Below, piece by piece: positions 4,294 through 43,131 of a stretch of DNA of 64,000 nucleotides. Source of the stretch: Candidatus Loosdrechtia aerotolerans. Its GTDB lineage: Bacteria; Planctomycetota; Brocadiia; Brocadiales; Brocadiaceae. A program made the translations under genes and the position numbers. The stretch is taken from NCBI GenBank assembly GCA_021646405.1, contig SOER01000002.1:1-64000 (forward strand), in the 5' to 3' direction. The notes under the pieces were generated by a model. That model worked only from the letters and a program-made list of their open reading frames with translations. It ran no database searches and was not told the DNA's origin. Numbering within the stretch: the stretch's first letter is position 1; each line of letters opens with the position of its first letter.

Positions 4294-5718
4294 TTATGCT
4301 GGAATATCCTTACCATGTGGTTCCGTCATAAAAACAGGCGACAATACCTGATTCAGCTGATCATCGGAAATGAGTTTTTCCCGGAGAATAATGTCTTTTA
4401 TGGATTCTCCTGTCCTCATTGACTCTTTCACCACCTCTGCTGCTTTTGAATATCCTATAATAGGATTCAAAACAGTAACGATTCCAATACTCTTTGTAGC
4501 ATAATCCCAGCACTTATCCGCATTTACAGTTATACCAGAGATACATTTATCGTTAAACACCTTTGCGGCATTCGTTATGATATGGAGTGAGTCCAGTAAT
4601 TTATATTGGATCAAAGGCATCATAACGTTAAGCTCAAATTGTCCTGCCTGCACAGCCATAGTAATCGACATATCGTTCCCTATTATTGAAAAACATACCA
4701 TATTCATCATCTCAGGAATGGCGGGATTCACTTTTCCCGGCATGATAGATGAACCTGGCTGTACGGCGGGCAAATTGATCTCCGCTAATCCTGTATTGGG
4801 TCCGGAGCACATAAGCCTTAGATCGTTTGAAATACGGATAAGTTCTCCGGCTAATGTGCGGAGGGCACCTGAAACTTCAATAAACGGTGCATTACTCTGC
4901 ATAGCTTCAAACCGGTTTTTCGATGCCCTGAGATCTAAGTTCGTCATTTTCCGAAGCTTTTCAATAACCCTGGAGGTAAATTCCGGATGGGTATTGATTC
5001 CCGTACCTACAGCACTCCCGCCAATTCCCAGCTCTTTTAAGCCTTCACTTACCCTTTCAATCCCCTTCGTTGCTTTAAATATCGACTCTGCATAACCGGA
5101 GAATTCCTGACCTACACGGATAGGTACAGCATCCTGAAGATGTGTACGGCCTGCTTTTACTACAGAATCAAAGGATTTTGCTTTCTGGTTAAAAGTTTCG
5201 GTTACAATATACAGATTTTTAACAAGTTTCTTTGTAAGCTGCAGTGCCGTAATACGCATTGCTGTCGGGTAGACATCATTCGTAGACTGCCCATAATTAA
5301 CATGATCGTTCGGATGCACTACAGAGTAATCCCCTTTCTCCCCGCCAAGCATTTCAATTGCAATGTTTGCAATAACTTCATTTACATTCATATGATGAGA
5401 TGTCCCGGCACCTGCCTGATATACATCTACCAGAAACTGGTCGTGAAACTCGCCATTTAATATCCGGTCACATGCAAGAATAATCATGTTACCAATTTTG
5501 CTTTCGAGACAGCCAAGTTCTACATTCACCATCGCTGCCGCTTTTTTTATTTGAACAAGTGCTGAGGTAAAAACAGGTTGCGGTGTTTGCCCGCTAACAG
5601 GGAAATTCTCAATGGCTCTGGCAGTTTGGATTCCATAATAAACATCAACAGGAATCTGCAATTCACCCAAATAATCTCTCTCTGTACGAAATAAATGTAT
5701 CACGCTTTTATTCATCAT
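4294..5718 (-). CDS. aspA: Aspartate ammonia-lyase (aspartase)
   Basis: Converts L-aspartate to fumarate and ammonia. The 474-residue length, the start block DYLGELQIPVDVYYGIQT, the THLQDAVPIRVGQE block at about 192 and the superfamily signature GSSIMPGKVNP (322-332) place it in the aspartase/fumarase group, and the N-terminal block favours aspartase over fumarase. Its ATG overlaps the end of the upstream ferritin-like gene by 11 nt, so the two are translationally linked. Its link with iron and peroxide proteins is not obvious; release of ammonium would fit an anammox host, but that is speculation. Confidence 0.9.
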   Translation of the reverse strand: MMNKSVIHLFRTERDYLGELQIPVDVYYGIQTARAIENFPVSGQTPQPVFTSALVQIKKAAAMVNVELGCLESKIGNMIILACDRILNGEFHDQFLVDVYQAGAGTSHHMNVNEVIANIAIEMLGGEKGDYSVVHPNDHVNYGQSTNDVYPTAMRITALQLTKKLVKNLYIVTETFNQKAKSFDSVVKAGRTHLQDAVPIRVGQEFSGYAESIFKATKGIERVSEGLKELGIGGSAVGTGINTHPEFTSRVIEKLRKMTNLDLRASKNRFEAMQSNAPFIEVSGALRTLAGELIRISNDLRLMCSGPNTGLAEINLPAVQPGSSIMPGKVNPAIPEMMNMVCFSIIGNDMSITMAVQAGQFELNVMMPLIQYKLLDSLHIITNAAKVFNDKCISGITVNADKCWDYATKSIGIVTVLNPIIGYSKAAEVVKESMRTGESIKDIILREKLISDDQLNQVLSPVFMTEPHGKDIPA

Positions 5719-6259
5719 TCTTTATCTTATTTACGGTATTCATCCACATATCATAGATACGCCCCTCGTTCTCCGCTTCCCAGAGTTCTTTCTGTTCAAG
5801 ATATTTAAGGGTATTCTTTAATATATGGAAATGAAGCTTCTCTTCATTAGCAAGAAAGTGGTATACCTCTTTTTCTTTTATATTCTCAGTCTCTCTTCCG
5901 GCATGTTCATAAAACGTAATCCCGTCCTCTTCTACCTTCATCGCTAATTTTATGGCATCTATATCACTGGTACTGGCATTCACCCGCTTTTTCAGCTCAT
6001 TACCCATCTTTTGAAATACGTTGATAAGCCTCTGCCCGGAATTTGCTTCAGCCTTTTCCATTGGCCGGGATGTTTCTCCGGAATTGAATAGCAACGCCCG
6101 AAGCCTTTTTACATGCATTTTTTCATCTTCTACAAAAGACCGGAACATCGCCTTCCCCATCGGATGAGAGGTCCTGGATGCCAGGTTGTTATAAAGCTTT
6201 ATTCCATCCATCTCCATCCGGAGTGCAATTGATTTTACATCCTCTAACATATTATCCAT
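5708..6259 (-). CDS. Rubrerythrin/ferritin-like protein
   Basis: A 183-residue helical protein with two ferritin-like halves. The first holds EMDGIKLYNNLA, then EDEKMHVKRL near residue 46; the second KVEEDGITFYEHA near 112, then ANEEKLHFHIL near 138. These supply the E and ExxH ligands expected for a di-iron centre. There is no rubredoxin tail. A strong GGAGGGG ribosome site precedes the ATG. It belongs to the minus-strand oxygen-defence block and overlaps aspA at its 3' end. Confidence 0.85.
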   Translation of the reverse strand: MDNMLEDVKSIALRMEMDGIKLYNNLASRTSHPMGKAMFRSFVEDEKMHVKRLRALLFNSGETSRPMEKAEANSGQRLINVFQKMGNELKKRVNASTSDIDAIKLAMKVEEDGITFYEHAGRETENIKEKEVYHFLANEEKLHFHILKNTLKYLEQKELWEAENEGRIYDMWMNTVNKIKNDE

Positions 6260-7035: not shown

Positions 7036-7171
7036 AACACAGTTGTAATGTGTATACAATCAGAATAATTTGAGACGATAAGTGTCATACCTGTCAAAAA
7101 ACGTAGATCAAAAATCCACGTATTTAGATTTTCCTGCCATAAATCTGTGAATCAATTTAACAATTTATGTA

Positions 7172-7199
7172 TTGACAATAGATGATATACATTTATAAT
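7172..7199 (+). promoter_or_regulatory. Consensus sigma-70 promoter
   Basis: TTGACA (7172-7177) and TATAAT (7194-7199) are both perfect consensus hexamers with a 16-bp spacer. The predicted start is near 7206. The only downstream features are a terminated short transcript and then the amidase gene. Confidence 0.8.
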
Positions 7200-7205
7200 G
7201 ATCGT

Positions 7206-7362
7206 ACAGGTTAGGGGTAGATTATAAACAATTGAAAGAGTAACAACAGAAAGCTTCAGTCGTAGCATGCATATGCATGCAAAACAGTAGAGAAAGCTGT
7301 GGGTAAACAGACGTTAAAAGCCTTACAGTGGAAGGAAGTCTAACAATCTGTAAGGTTTTTTT
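7206..7362 (+). ncRNA. Candidate small RNA or attenuated leader of the amidase gene
   Basis: A perfect promoter and a strong terminator bracket about 155 nt with no plausible reading frame. Inside are a 16-bp perfect palindrome (GCATGCATATGCATGC at 7265-7280), a short ACAG/CTGT hairpin and the terminator hairpin CCTTACAG/CTGTAAGG (7321-7355) followed by seven T. I do not recognise a known riboswitch or 6S-like consensus. It could be a stand-alone sRNA or a regulated leader, since the amidase ATG lies 70 nt beyond the terminator. Confidence 0.5.
7321..7362 (+). terminator. Rho-independent terminator
   Basis: CCTTACAG (7321-7328) pairs perfectly with CTGTAAGG (7348-7355) and is followed by seven T. 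It ends the short transcript that begins near 7206. Confidence 0.85.
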
Positions 7363-7431
7363 AATAAAGCAATTACATTAAAGAGCCTCGCAGAGAAACA
7401 CCGTTGTATTACTTACTTTCAGGTTACAAAT

Positions 7432-8094
7432 ATGGGCAAGCACGAGAGGATTATCCAATATGCATCGCTCTTTACAACGGCGGCGACATTAGGGGTATTT
7501 ATCTCTTTATCCTTTCTTGATGATTTAACTATCGGGAAGACACTGTTTCTCTTTAACCCTCCGCGGATAGACCGGTCAGACCCGGAATTCAAAATTGCAC
7601 ATCTCTGCTATACAGATGTAACTGAAAACCAGTGGAAATATATTGTTATTCATCACAGCGCAACCACAAAAGGCAATGCTGCCCGGTTCGACGATTATCA
7701 CAGGAACAAAAGGGGCTGGAAGTACGGACTTGCCTATCACTTCGTCATTGGAAACGGAACGTTCTCAGGTGATGGTGAAATTGAGGTTGCCGAGAGATGG
7801 AGGAAGCAAATCCACGGGGCCCATACAGCAAATATGGATTGCAACCGGATAGCTATCGGAATATGCCTTGTTGGTGATTTTGAGAATGCAGGTACCCCTA
7901 CCAGTAAGCAACTTGATTCATTGGTTAGATTAACCCATTATCTTTCCGAAAGATATAACATACCTTTATCTAACGTAATATTGCACAGCCAGGTACATCA
8001 GAAAGGTACCGCGTGCCCCGGTAAAAATTTTCCATTTTCGGAATTTAAAACACGTCTTATGCAAAGCGTATCAAATCCGGACAATCGCATCTGA
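7432..8094 (+). CDS. N-acetylmuramoyl-L-alanine amidase (amidase_2/PGRP type)
   Basis: Zinc amidase that cleaves the peptide stem from muramic acid. A membrane segment at residues 15-30 would anchor it facing the periplasm. The catalytic domain (about 65-215) shows the family ligands: first His in VIHHSATTKGNA, the catalytic Tyr in LAYHFVIGNG, second His in ILHSQVHQKG and the Cys/Asp-region ligand in TACPGKNFP. The ribosome site before ATG 7432 is weak. Presence of a peptidoglycan amidase is consistent with a thin peptidoglycan layer. Confidence 0.87.
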   Translation: MGKHERIIQYASLFTTAATLGVFISLSFLDDLTIGKTLFLFNPPRIDRSDPEFKIAHLCYTDVTENQWKYIVIHHSATTKGNAARFDDYHRNKRGWKYGLAYHFVIGNGTFSGDGEIEVAERWRKQIHGAHTANMDCNRIAIGICLVGDFENAGTPTSKQLDSLVRLTHYLSERYNIPLSNVILHSQVHQKGTACPGKNFPFSEFKTRLMQSVSNPDNRI

Positions 8095-15123: not shown

Positions 15124-15390
15124 CTGTCTTTATATTTTCTCGTTTATGGCTCATGTTTGGCAGTAAGGCTATCTTTCTAGCAGTCAGAATAGTTTATCGT
15201 GCTTAAAGACCCTTTCCTTTGCGTCCCCCAATCACTTGGGGTTTGCCCTTTTCATTTTTTACAGAACTATACGCCTGTTTATATAACACTCCTGATAGTA
15301 TATGTCAAATAAAAAATGGTATAGATTGTACAGGAATGATTGCAGTCACGAAAATGCCTTTATCTGTAGATCTTATTTTAACTATCTGAA

Positions 15391-42948: not shown

Positions 42949-42977
42949 TTGACAGGCAAAATATTTTTCGCTATAAT
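42949..42977 (+). promoter_or_regulatory. Consensus promoter of the SAM-riboswitch unit
   Basis: TTGACA (42949-42954) and TATAAT (42972-42977) separated by exactly 17 bp. Predicted start near 42984, 13 nt before the riboswitch P1 stem, so the unit has its own promoter separate from the metK-ahcY transcript. Confidence 0.88.
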
Positions 42978-42996
42978 TACGACAAAATCGATTTGT

Positions 42997-43119
42997 CTTA
43001 TCGAGAGTGGCTGAGGGACTGGCCCTACGAAGCCACAGCAACCGATTGTATCCAGAGGATGTAGTAACCGGGTACGATGCTGGTGCTAATTCCTGTCTCA
43101 TACTATGGGAAAAGATAAG
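42997..43119 (+). promoter_or_regulatory. SAM-I (S-box) riboswitch
   Basis: The P1 stem pairs CTTATC (42997) with GATAAG (43114-43119). Conserved S-box parts follow in order: GAGAGTGGCTGAGGGACTGGCCC, GAAGCCACAGCAACC (P2 GTGGC/GCCAC), the pseudoknot segment, AACCGGG and GGTGCTAATTCC. Antiterminator AAGATAGGAA (43117-43126) can pair with TTCCTATCTT (43140-43149); its 5' side overlaps P1, so SAM binding should favour the terminator and turn the downstream genes off. Confidence 0.93.
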
Positions 43120-43131
43120 ATAGGAACACAG

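Follow-up and report, generated by a model that had tools for sequence, protein, structure and literature searches.

The window, i.e. the entire 64,000-nucleotide (64-kb) stretch of DNA that was analysed, contains a gene for an N-acetylmuramoyl-L-alanine amidase of the Amidase_2 family, preceded on the same strand by a promoter, a leader and an intrinsic terminator. The features considered in this study are given below, with positions numbered as in the window.

7147–7171, + strand: A+T-rich stretch directly 5′ of the −35 hexamer, within the block that is matched in relatives
7172–7199, + strand: consensus promoter TTGACA-16-TATAAT, which is conserved before the orthologous amidase genes
7206–7362, + strand: predicted terminated leader RNA of approximately 157 nt, its start placed from the −10 hexamer and its end from the T-run
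7206–7333, + strand: putative eroded c-di-GMP-I aptamer (5.7 bits over positions 1–133 of a family-specific model, and the helix comparison below)
7265–7280, + strand: 16-bp palindrome, or 6-bp hairpin, in the presumed former variable end loop of helix P2
7316–7362, + strand: intrinsic terminator, whose 5′ arm (AGCCTTAC) corresponds to what was the 3′ strand of P2 in the aptamer
7432–8094, + strand: amidase gene (PF01510, 7.4e-23), the presumed regulated gene, with orthologues in relatives
15156–15257, − strand: intact c-di-GMP-I riboswitch, 7 kb away and outside the element, before a pilM-like gene; used as an internal comparison

The amidase is 220 amino acids long, and its start codon is situated seventy bases 3′ of the terminator. 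The nearest noteworthy ORFs upstream of the leader lie on the opposite strand. A ferritin-like gene (5708–6259, − strand) is weakly similar, below the cut-off, to the EncB family of encapsulin cargo proteins; two small genes lie beside it, of which one is rubrerythrin-like.

A preliminary description of this locus had reported consensus promoter hexamers, a strong terminator and no reading frame between them, and these observations were confirmed. The promoter (7172–7199, + strand) is of the sigma-70 type and matches the consensus at 12 of 12 positions, with a 16-nt spacer. Promoters with 12/12 matches and spacers of 15–19 nt occur twice in the window, at 7172 and 42949, against a chance level of 0.1 per window (20 in 200 dinucleotide shuffles, both strands). 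The second of these (42949–42977, + strand) is located directly 5′ of a SAM riboswitch (42995–43121, + strand). A leader peptide was looked for, but no + strand ORF of at least 20 amino acids starts inside the leader. The folding of the leader as a whole is only mildly better than that of shuffled sequences (z-score of −1.9).

The terminator has the form A4GCCTTACAG...CTGTAAGG-T7, i.e. a GC-containing hairpin followed by a T-run, with arms at 7316–7328 and 7348–7359 and the T-run at 7356–7362. The hairpin, folded alone, has a free energy of −16.4 kcal/mol. A consensus terminator scanner reported no terminator at the leader because its loop limit is 8, so the designation of the terminator as strong rests on the folding. 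The 16-bp palindrome to which attention had been drawn (GCATGCATATGCATGC) is exact, but it is less remarkable than the promoter; perfect palindromes of that length number six in the window versus 1.5 per shuffle. Its position corresponds to the variable end loop of P2 in the presumed ancestral riboswitch (see below), and it is probably incidental.

Relatives of the element were sought in 59 genomes of the order, 33 from the family and 26 from other families. The latter were searched for the amidase and for RF01051, and the comparison of leaders was confined to the family, in which the genome containing the window groups with Brocadia, Jettenia and Kuenenia. When a 231-bp element was used as the DNA query against the 59 genomes, only promoter-sized or short matches were obtained besides the window itself. 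Most of the short matches had E values above 0.01 and look like chance. The promoter-sized matches in family members span query positions 1–53 (7150–7202), and a separate protein search placed them upstream of the amidase orthologue. Of the 30 genomes whose contig includes the region upstream of the amidase, 27 contain a TTGACA-N15-18-TA(T/C)AAT sequence, 100–675 nt before that gene. The promoters of G004 and G016 were matched only with strings fitted to them, and the pattern search revealed none upstream of the amidase in G002.

Leaders were readable in 31 of the 33 family genomes. G007, in which no close amidase orthologue was found, and G025, in which the contig ends 54 nt upstream, were omitted, and in G020 an amidase copy without such a leader (L049) was set aside for a copy with one. 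Much of the family has retained the order promoter, leader, terminator, amidase. The window shares the promoter, the terminator with a AGCCTTAC arm and the amidase, in that order, with the group defined here as the Brocadiaceae amidase-leader element. On the + strand, the interval from the terminator to the start of the amidase contains no other promoter-like site and this, together with the conserved order, supports the earlier suggestion of an attenuated leader for the amidase gene.

In 19 of the 31 readable leaders, a c-di-GMP-I riboswitch at or above the Rfam gathering score is situated between the promoter and the amidase. The count includes matches to RF01051 (GEMM-I) and those to RF03167, for which the score only slightly exceeds the cut-off of that model. 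Many of the relatives' leaders read AAAGGCAAACC...GGACGCAAAGG...AGCCUUACUGCCGAAG. The residues of c-di-GMP-I that contact the ligand are given as G20, A47 and C92 in PMC4744006, and their equivalents are present in all eight of the intact leaders tabulated. Rfam labels the amidase leaders L043 and L053, as well as the pilM-side copy in the window, as c-di-GMP-I-GGC (RF03167), with scores of 59.1–63.8 bits against a cut-off of 59. These copies read GACGCAAAG instead of the RF03167 consensus, GACGCGAAG, and the label therefore appears borderline and doubtful. The window's own amidase leader differs from c-di-GMP-I-GGC in having no match to that model.

In the intact relatives, AGCCUUACU serves two helices, as the 3′ strand of P2 and as the 5′ arm of the terminator, and binding of c-di-GMP should therefore favour read-through. 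Judged from this anatomy, P2 stabilised by the ligand would block the terminator, and the amidase would be switched on. c-di-GMP-I riboswitches can act via terminators and anti-terminators, according to PMC11218506.

The window leader itself was searched against Rfam with Infernal, at gathering and permissive thresholds (E ≤ 10). Only two snoRNA matches, attributable to chance, were returned, and thus no informative family. In the Rfam scan of the whole window, the only c-di-GMP-I copy found was that near 15155, and no match to RF01051 at the gathering score was obtained in the amidase leader. The earlier statement that the leader matches no riboswitch consensus is thus literally true with respect to Rfam, but it is misleading, as the orthologous leader is c-di-GMP-I in the 19 relatives mentioned above.

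From the 19 intact leaders, 14 were used to derive a leader profile and 14 an aptamer covariance model. Kuenenia and g8 are absent from both; the leader profile also lacks G018, the aptamer model lacks G011, and the window was excluded from the leader profiles used here. The best match of the profile to the 64-kb window is the intact copy at 15255–15072 (− strand; E value of 3.7e-19), and the second best is 7261–7364 (+ strand; E value of 0.18), for which place, strand and register are correct. When the promoter and five intermediate leaders were added to the profile, the window was matched at 7149–7362 with an E value of 3.7e-6. For the leader alone, 2000 dinucleotide shuffles were scored with three profiles, and with no profile did any shuffle reach the real score. 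On the aptamer model, L048, an intact leader outside the model, scores 124 bits, the pilM-side copy 86.7 bits, and the Kuenenia and g8 leaders 68–73 bits. Below these, the graded series continues with Jettenia (64–68 bits) and g4 (36 bits) down to the window (5.7 bits, from cmsearch with filters off, 7206–7333 against model positions 1–133). No match to the model was reported for G001, g2, g3 or four eroded g9 leaders. The window leader scores poorly with each model taken singly (E value of 0.18, 5.7 bits, no Rfam match), and the case for its homology to the leaders of the relatives therefore depends on position, on the promoter and on the 3′ third.

In one alignment the window equivalents of G20, A47 and C92 are G, A and T, with the 5′ half aligning ambiguously. 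A c-di-GMP-I-UAU variant, indicated by another hand alignment (U at 20 and 92), was considered and set aside, as it was not reported by Rfam and disagrees with the alignments from MAFFT and cmsearch.

Helices were compared in an alignment of 12 leaders, comprising eight of the 19 intact ones and four of the six that keep the terminator. In the window, P1b retains 5 of 8 pairs, P2 retains 3 of 10 and the terminator 8 of 9, and the two inner P1 pairs are broken. The P1b helix with its inner GC pairs and the P2 helix that characterise RF01051 are thus not present in intact form. In G001, the other member of the genus compared, the aptamer retains 0 of 18 pairs and the terminator 9 of 9, and the leader is 58 nt shorter than that of the window. 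The g4 leader retains P2 (9/10) and the terminator (9/9) with 2 of 8 P1b pairs; the corresponding values in Jettenia (g5) are 10/10, 8/9 and 4/8. In Jettenia, allowing one bulge restores the P1b hairpin, both on inspection by eye and in the alignment from cmsearch, so that what is missing there is chiefly the two inner GC pairs. Judged from these leaders, the sister lineages show intermediate stages of aptamer erosion.

In the amidase tree, the six leaders that have a terminator but no Rfam-recognised aptamer group together as a single branch (g4/g5/g1), for which the support, 80/80, is not strong. Over the 31 leaders, the distribution of intact and non-intact aptamers on that tree entails at least four changes. 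Within g9, two leaders have an intact aptamer, and four (L039, L055, L154, L155) have neither an aptamer nor a terminator found by pattern, with the promoter kept 353–675 nt before the amidase. In g3 the promoter is present with only 72 nt to the gene and nothing recognisable between them.

Two terminator pairs have changed on both sides, one of them in G001; the same count is reached by 7 of 500 shuffles, and slid versions show fewer such changes. At fourfold-degenerate sites of the amidase gene, only 26 of 59 are identical between the window and G001, and it is therefore unlikely that the retained terminator arm merely reflects recency of divergence.

These comparisons make it quite probable that the element in the window is the orthologue of the Brocadiaceae amidase c-di-GMP-I attenuator, whose sensor has decayed, and that it now acts as a constitutive, leaky attenuator. 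It most probably represents a decayed riboswitch leader and not an unknown class of RNA or an orphan RNA. It shares with c-di-GMP-I (RF01051) its orthologous position, the promoter, the P2 3′ strand and the terminator, and it differs in its broken ligand-binding arm and P2, with the scores given above. In this lineage the ligand-binding arm and P2 would have decayed while the promoter and terminator stayed, and control by the ligand has probably been lost. The sequences show the homology, the gene order, the retained promoter and terminator and the lost aptamer pairs, and from these are deduced transcription, the loss of ligand binding and constitutive behaviour. Since P2 cannot form as it does in the relatives, the terminator can form, no other promoter is seen between terminator and gene, and the nearest noteworthy upstream ORFs are on the opposite strand, a terminated RNA of approximately 157 nt and constitutive low read-through are expected. 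Most transcripts would stop at 7362, and the amidase would be expressed from those that read through. The element resembles attenuator leaders with a constitutive intrinsic terminator in its arrangement of promoter, leader, terminator and gene; it differs from them in its presumed descent from a riboswitch.

A point that sits uneasily with this interpretation is that the terminator is kept in the window yet is found in neither the four g9 leaders nor g3, which is odd if it is merely repressive. A less likely explanation, to which some weight should nevertheless be given, is that the leader has been re-tooled, termination being controlled by another ligand, a protein or a different antiterminator, such as pairing of the leader 5′ end with CCUUA of the terminator arm. 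The platform would then have outlived its sensor: the ancestor of g4, Jettenia and g1 would have lost the c-di-GMP arm, and a promoter-terminator leader would have been selected with a new input, a sequence of events that is also possible but doubtful. The terminator is present in all six g4/g5/g1 leaders though no Rfam aptamer is found in any, g4 and g5 also retain P2, and the minimum free energy fold of the truncated window transcript pairs the terminator arm with the leader 5′ end. In folding of truncated transcripts, the value for pairing of the terminator 5′ arm is 0.65 in the window, similar to the 0.48–0.76 of intact relatives, so an alternative antiterminator is conceivable. The predicted alternative pairing is, however, no stronger than in other leaders, and no new sequence or structure is common to the window and G001.

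It is improbable that the transcript is an independent small RNA with other transcripts as its targets. A consensus promoter and a terminator around 157 nt without a frame fit such an RNA, but both are inherited from a cis-acting leader, the central sequence is unconserved even in G001, from the same genus, and the amidase has no other visible promoter. A c-di-GMP-I riboswitch that still functions but has diverged too far to be detected is very improbable: unfiltered cmsearch does align 7206–7333 to the full model, but with a score of only 5.7 bits, with P2 and two inner P1 pairs broken and with T as the equivalent of C92. An unrelated leader that by coincidence has a good promoter and terminator, as the weak stand-alone scores might indicate, is scarcely credible given the shuffle results, the E value of 3.7e-6 with the promoter, and the recurrence in relatives of the gene, the order and the terminator arm.

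The genome containing the window has only five c-di-GMP-I riboswitches over the cut-off and six GGDEF domains. One riboswitch copy, at 15156–15257, precedes a gene for a PilM-like protein (PF11104) within a cluster on the minus strand whose last gene encodes a secretin; its Rfam label, c-di-GMP-I-GGC, was obtained with 59.1 bits against the cut-off of 59. G001 and G002 also have a c-di-GMP-I match on the strand opposite to the amidase, 6.6 kb and 6.3 kb downstream of it, respectively. The neighbouring copy is therefore intact in three genomes in which the amidase-side aptamer has been lost. A sixth copy, L168 (G000:C55:98394-98488, − strand), has 21.2 bits against a cut-off of 35, looks like another eroding aptamer, and precedes an open frame that is at least 400 residues long. 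Across the family, the number of c-di-GMP-I riboswitches varies from 1 to 56 per genome (G003, G020 and others). The Brocadia-type (g11) genomes contain 21–56, and two g11 genomes have 15 and 19 GGDEF domains.

Searches of an open-access library for c-di-GMP riboswitches with amidases or anammox, for riboswitches in Kuenenia and for riboswitch decay revealed nothing on this element. The leaders described here constitute a natural series, for one orthologous gene in one family, from an intact riboswitch, through a sensor-less leader with a terminator, to a bare promoter. The series allows one to ask how genes escape or inherit second-messenger control, and it bears on what selection retains a terminator once the switch is gone. 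The findings further connect c-di-GMP with a peptidoglycan amidase of anammox-type bacteria.
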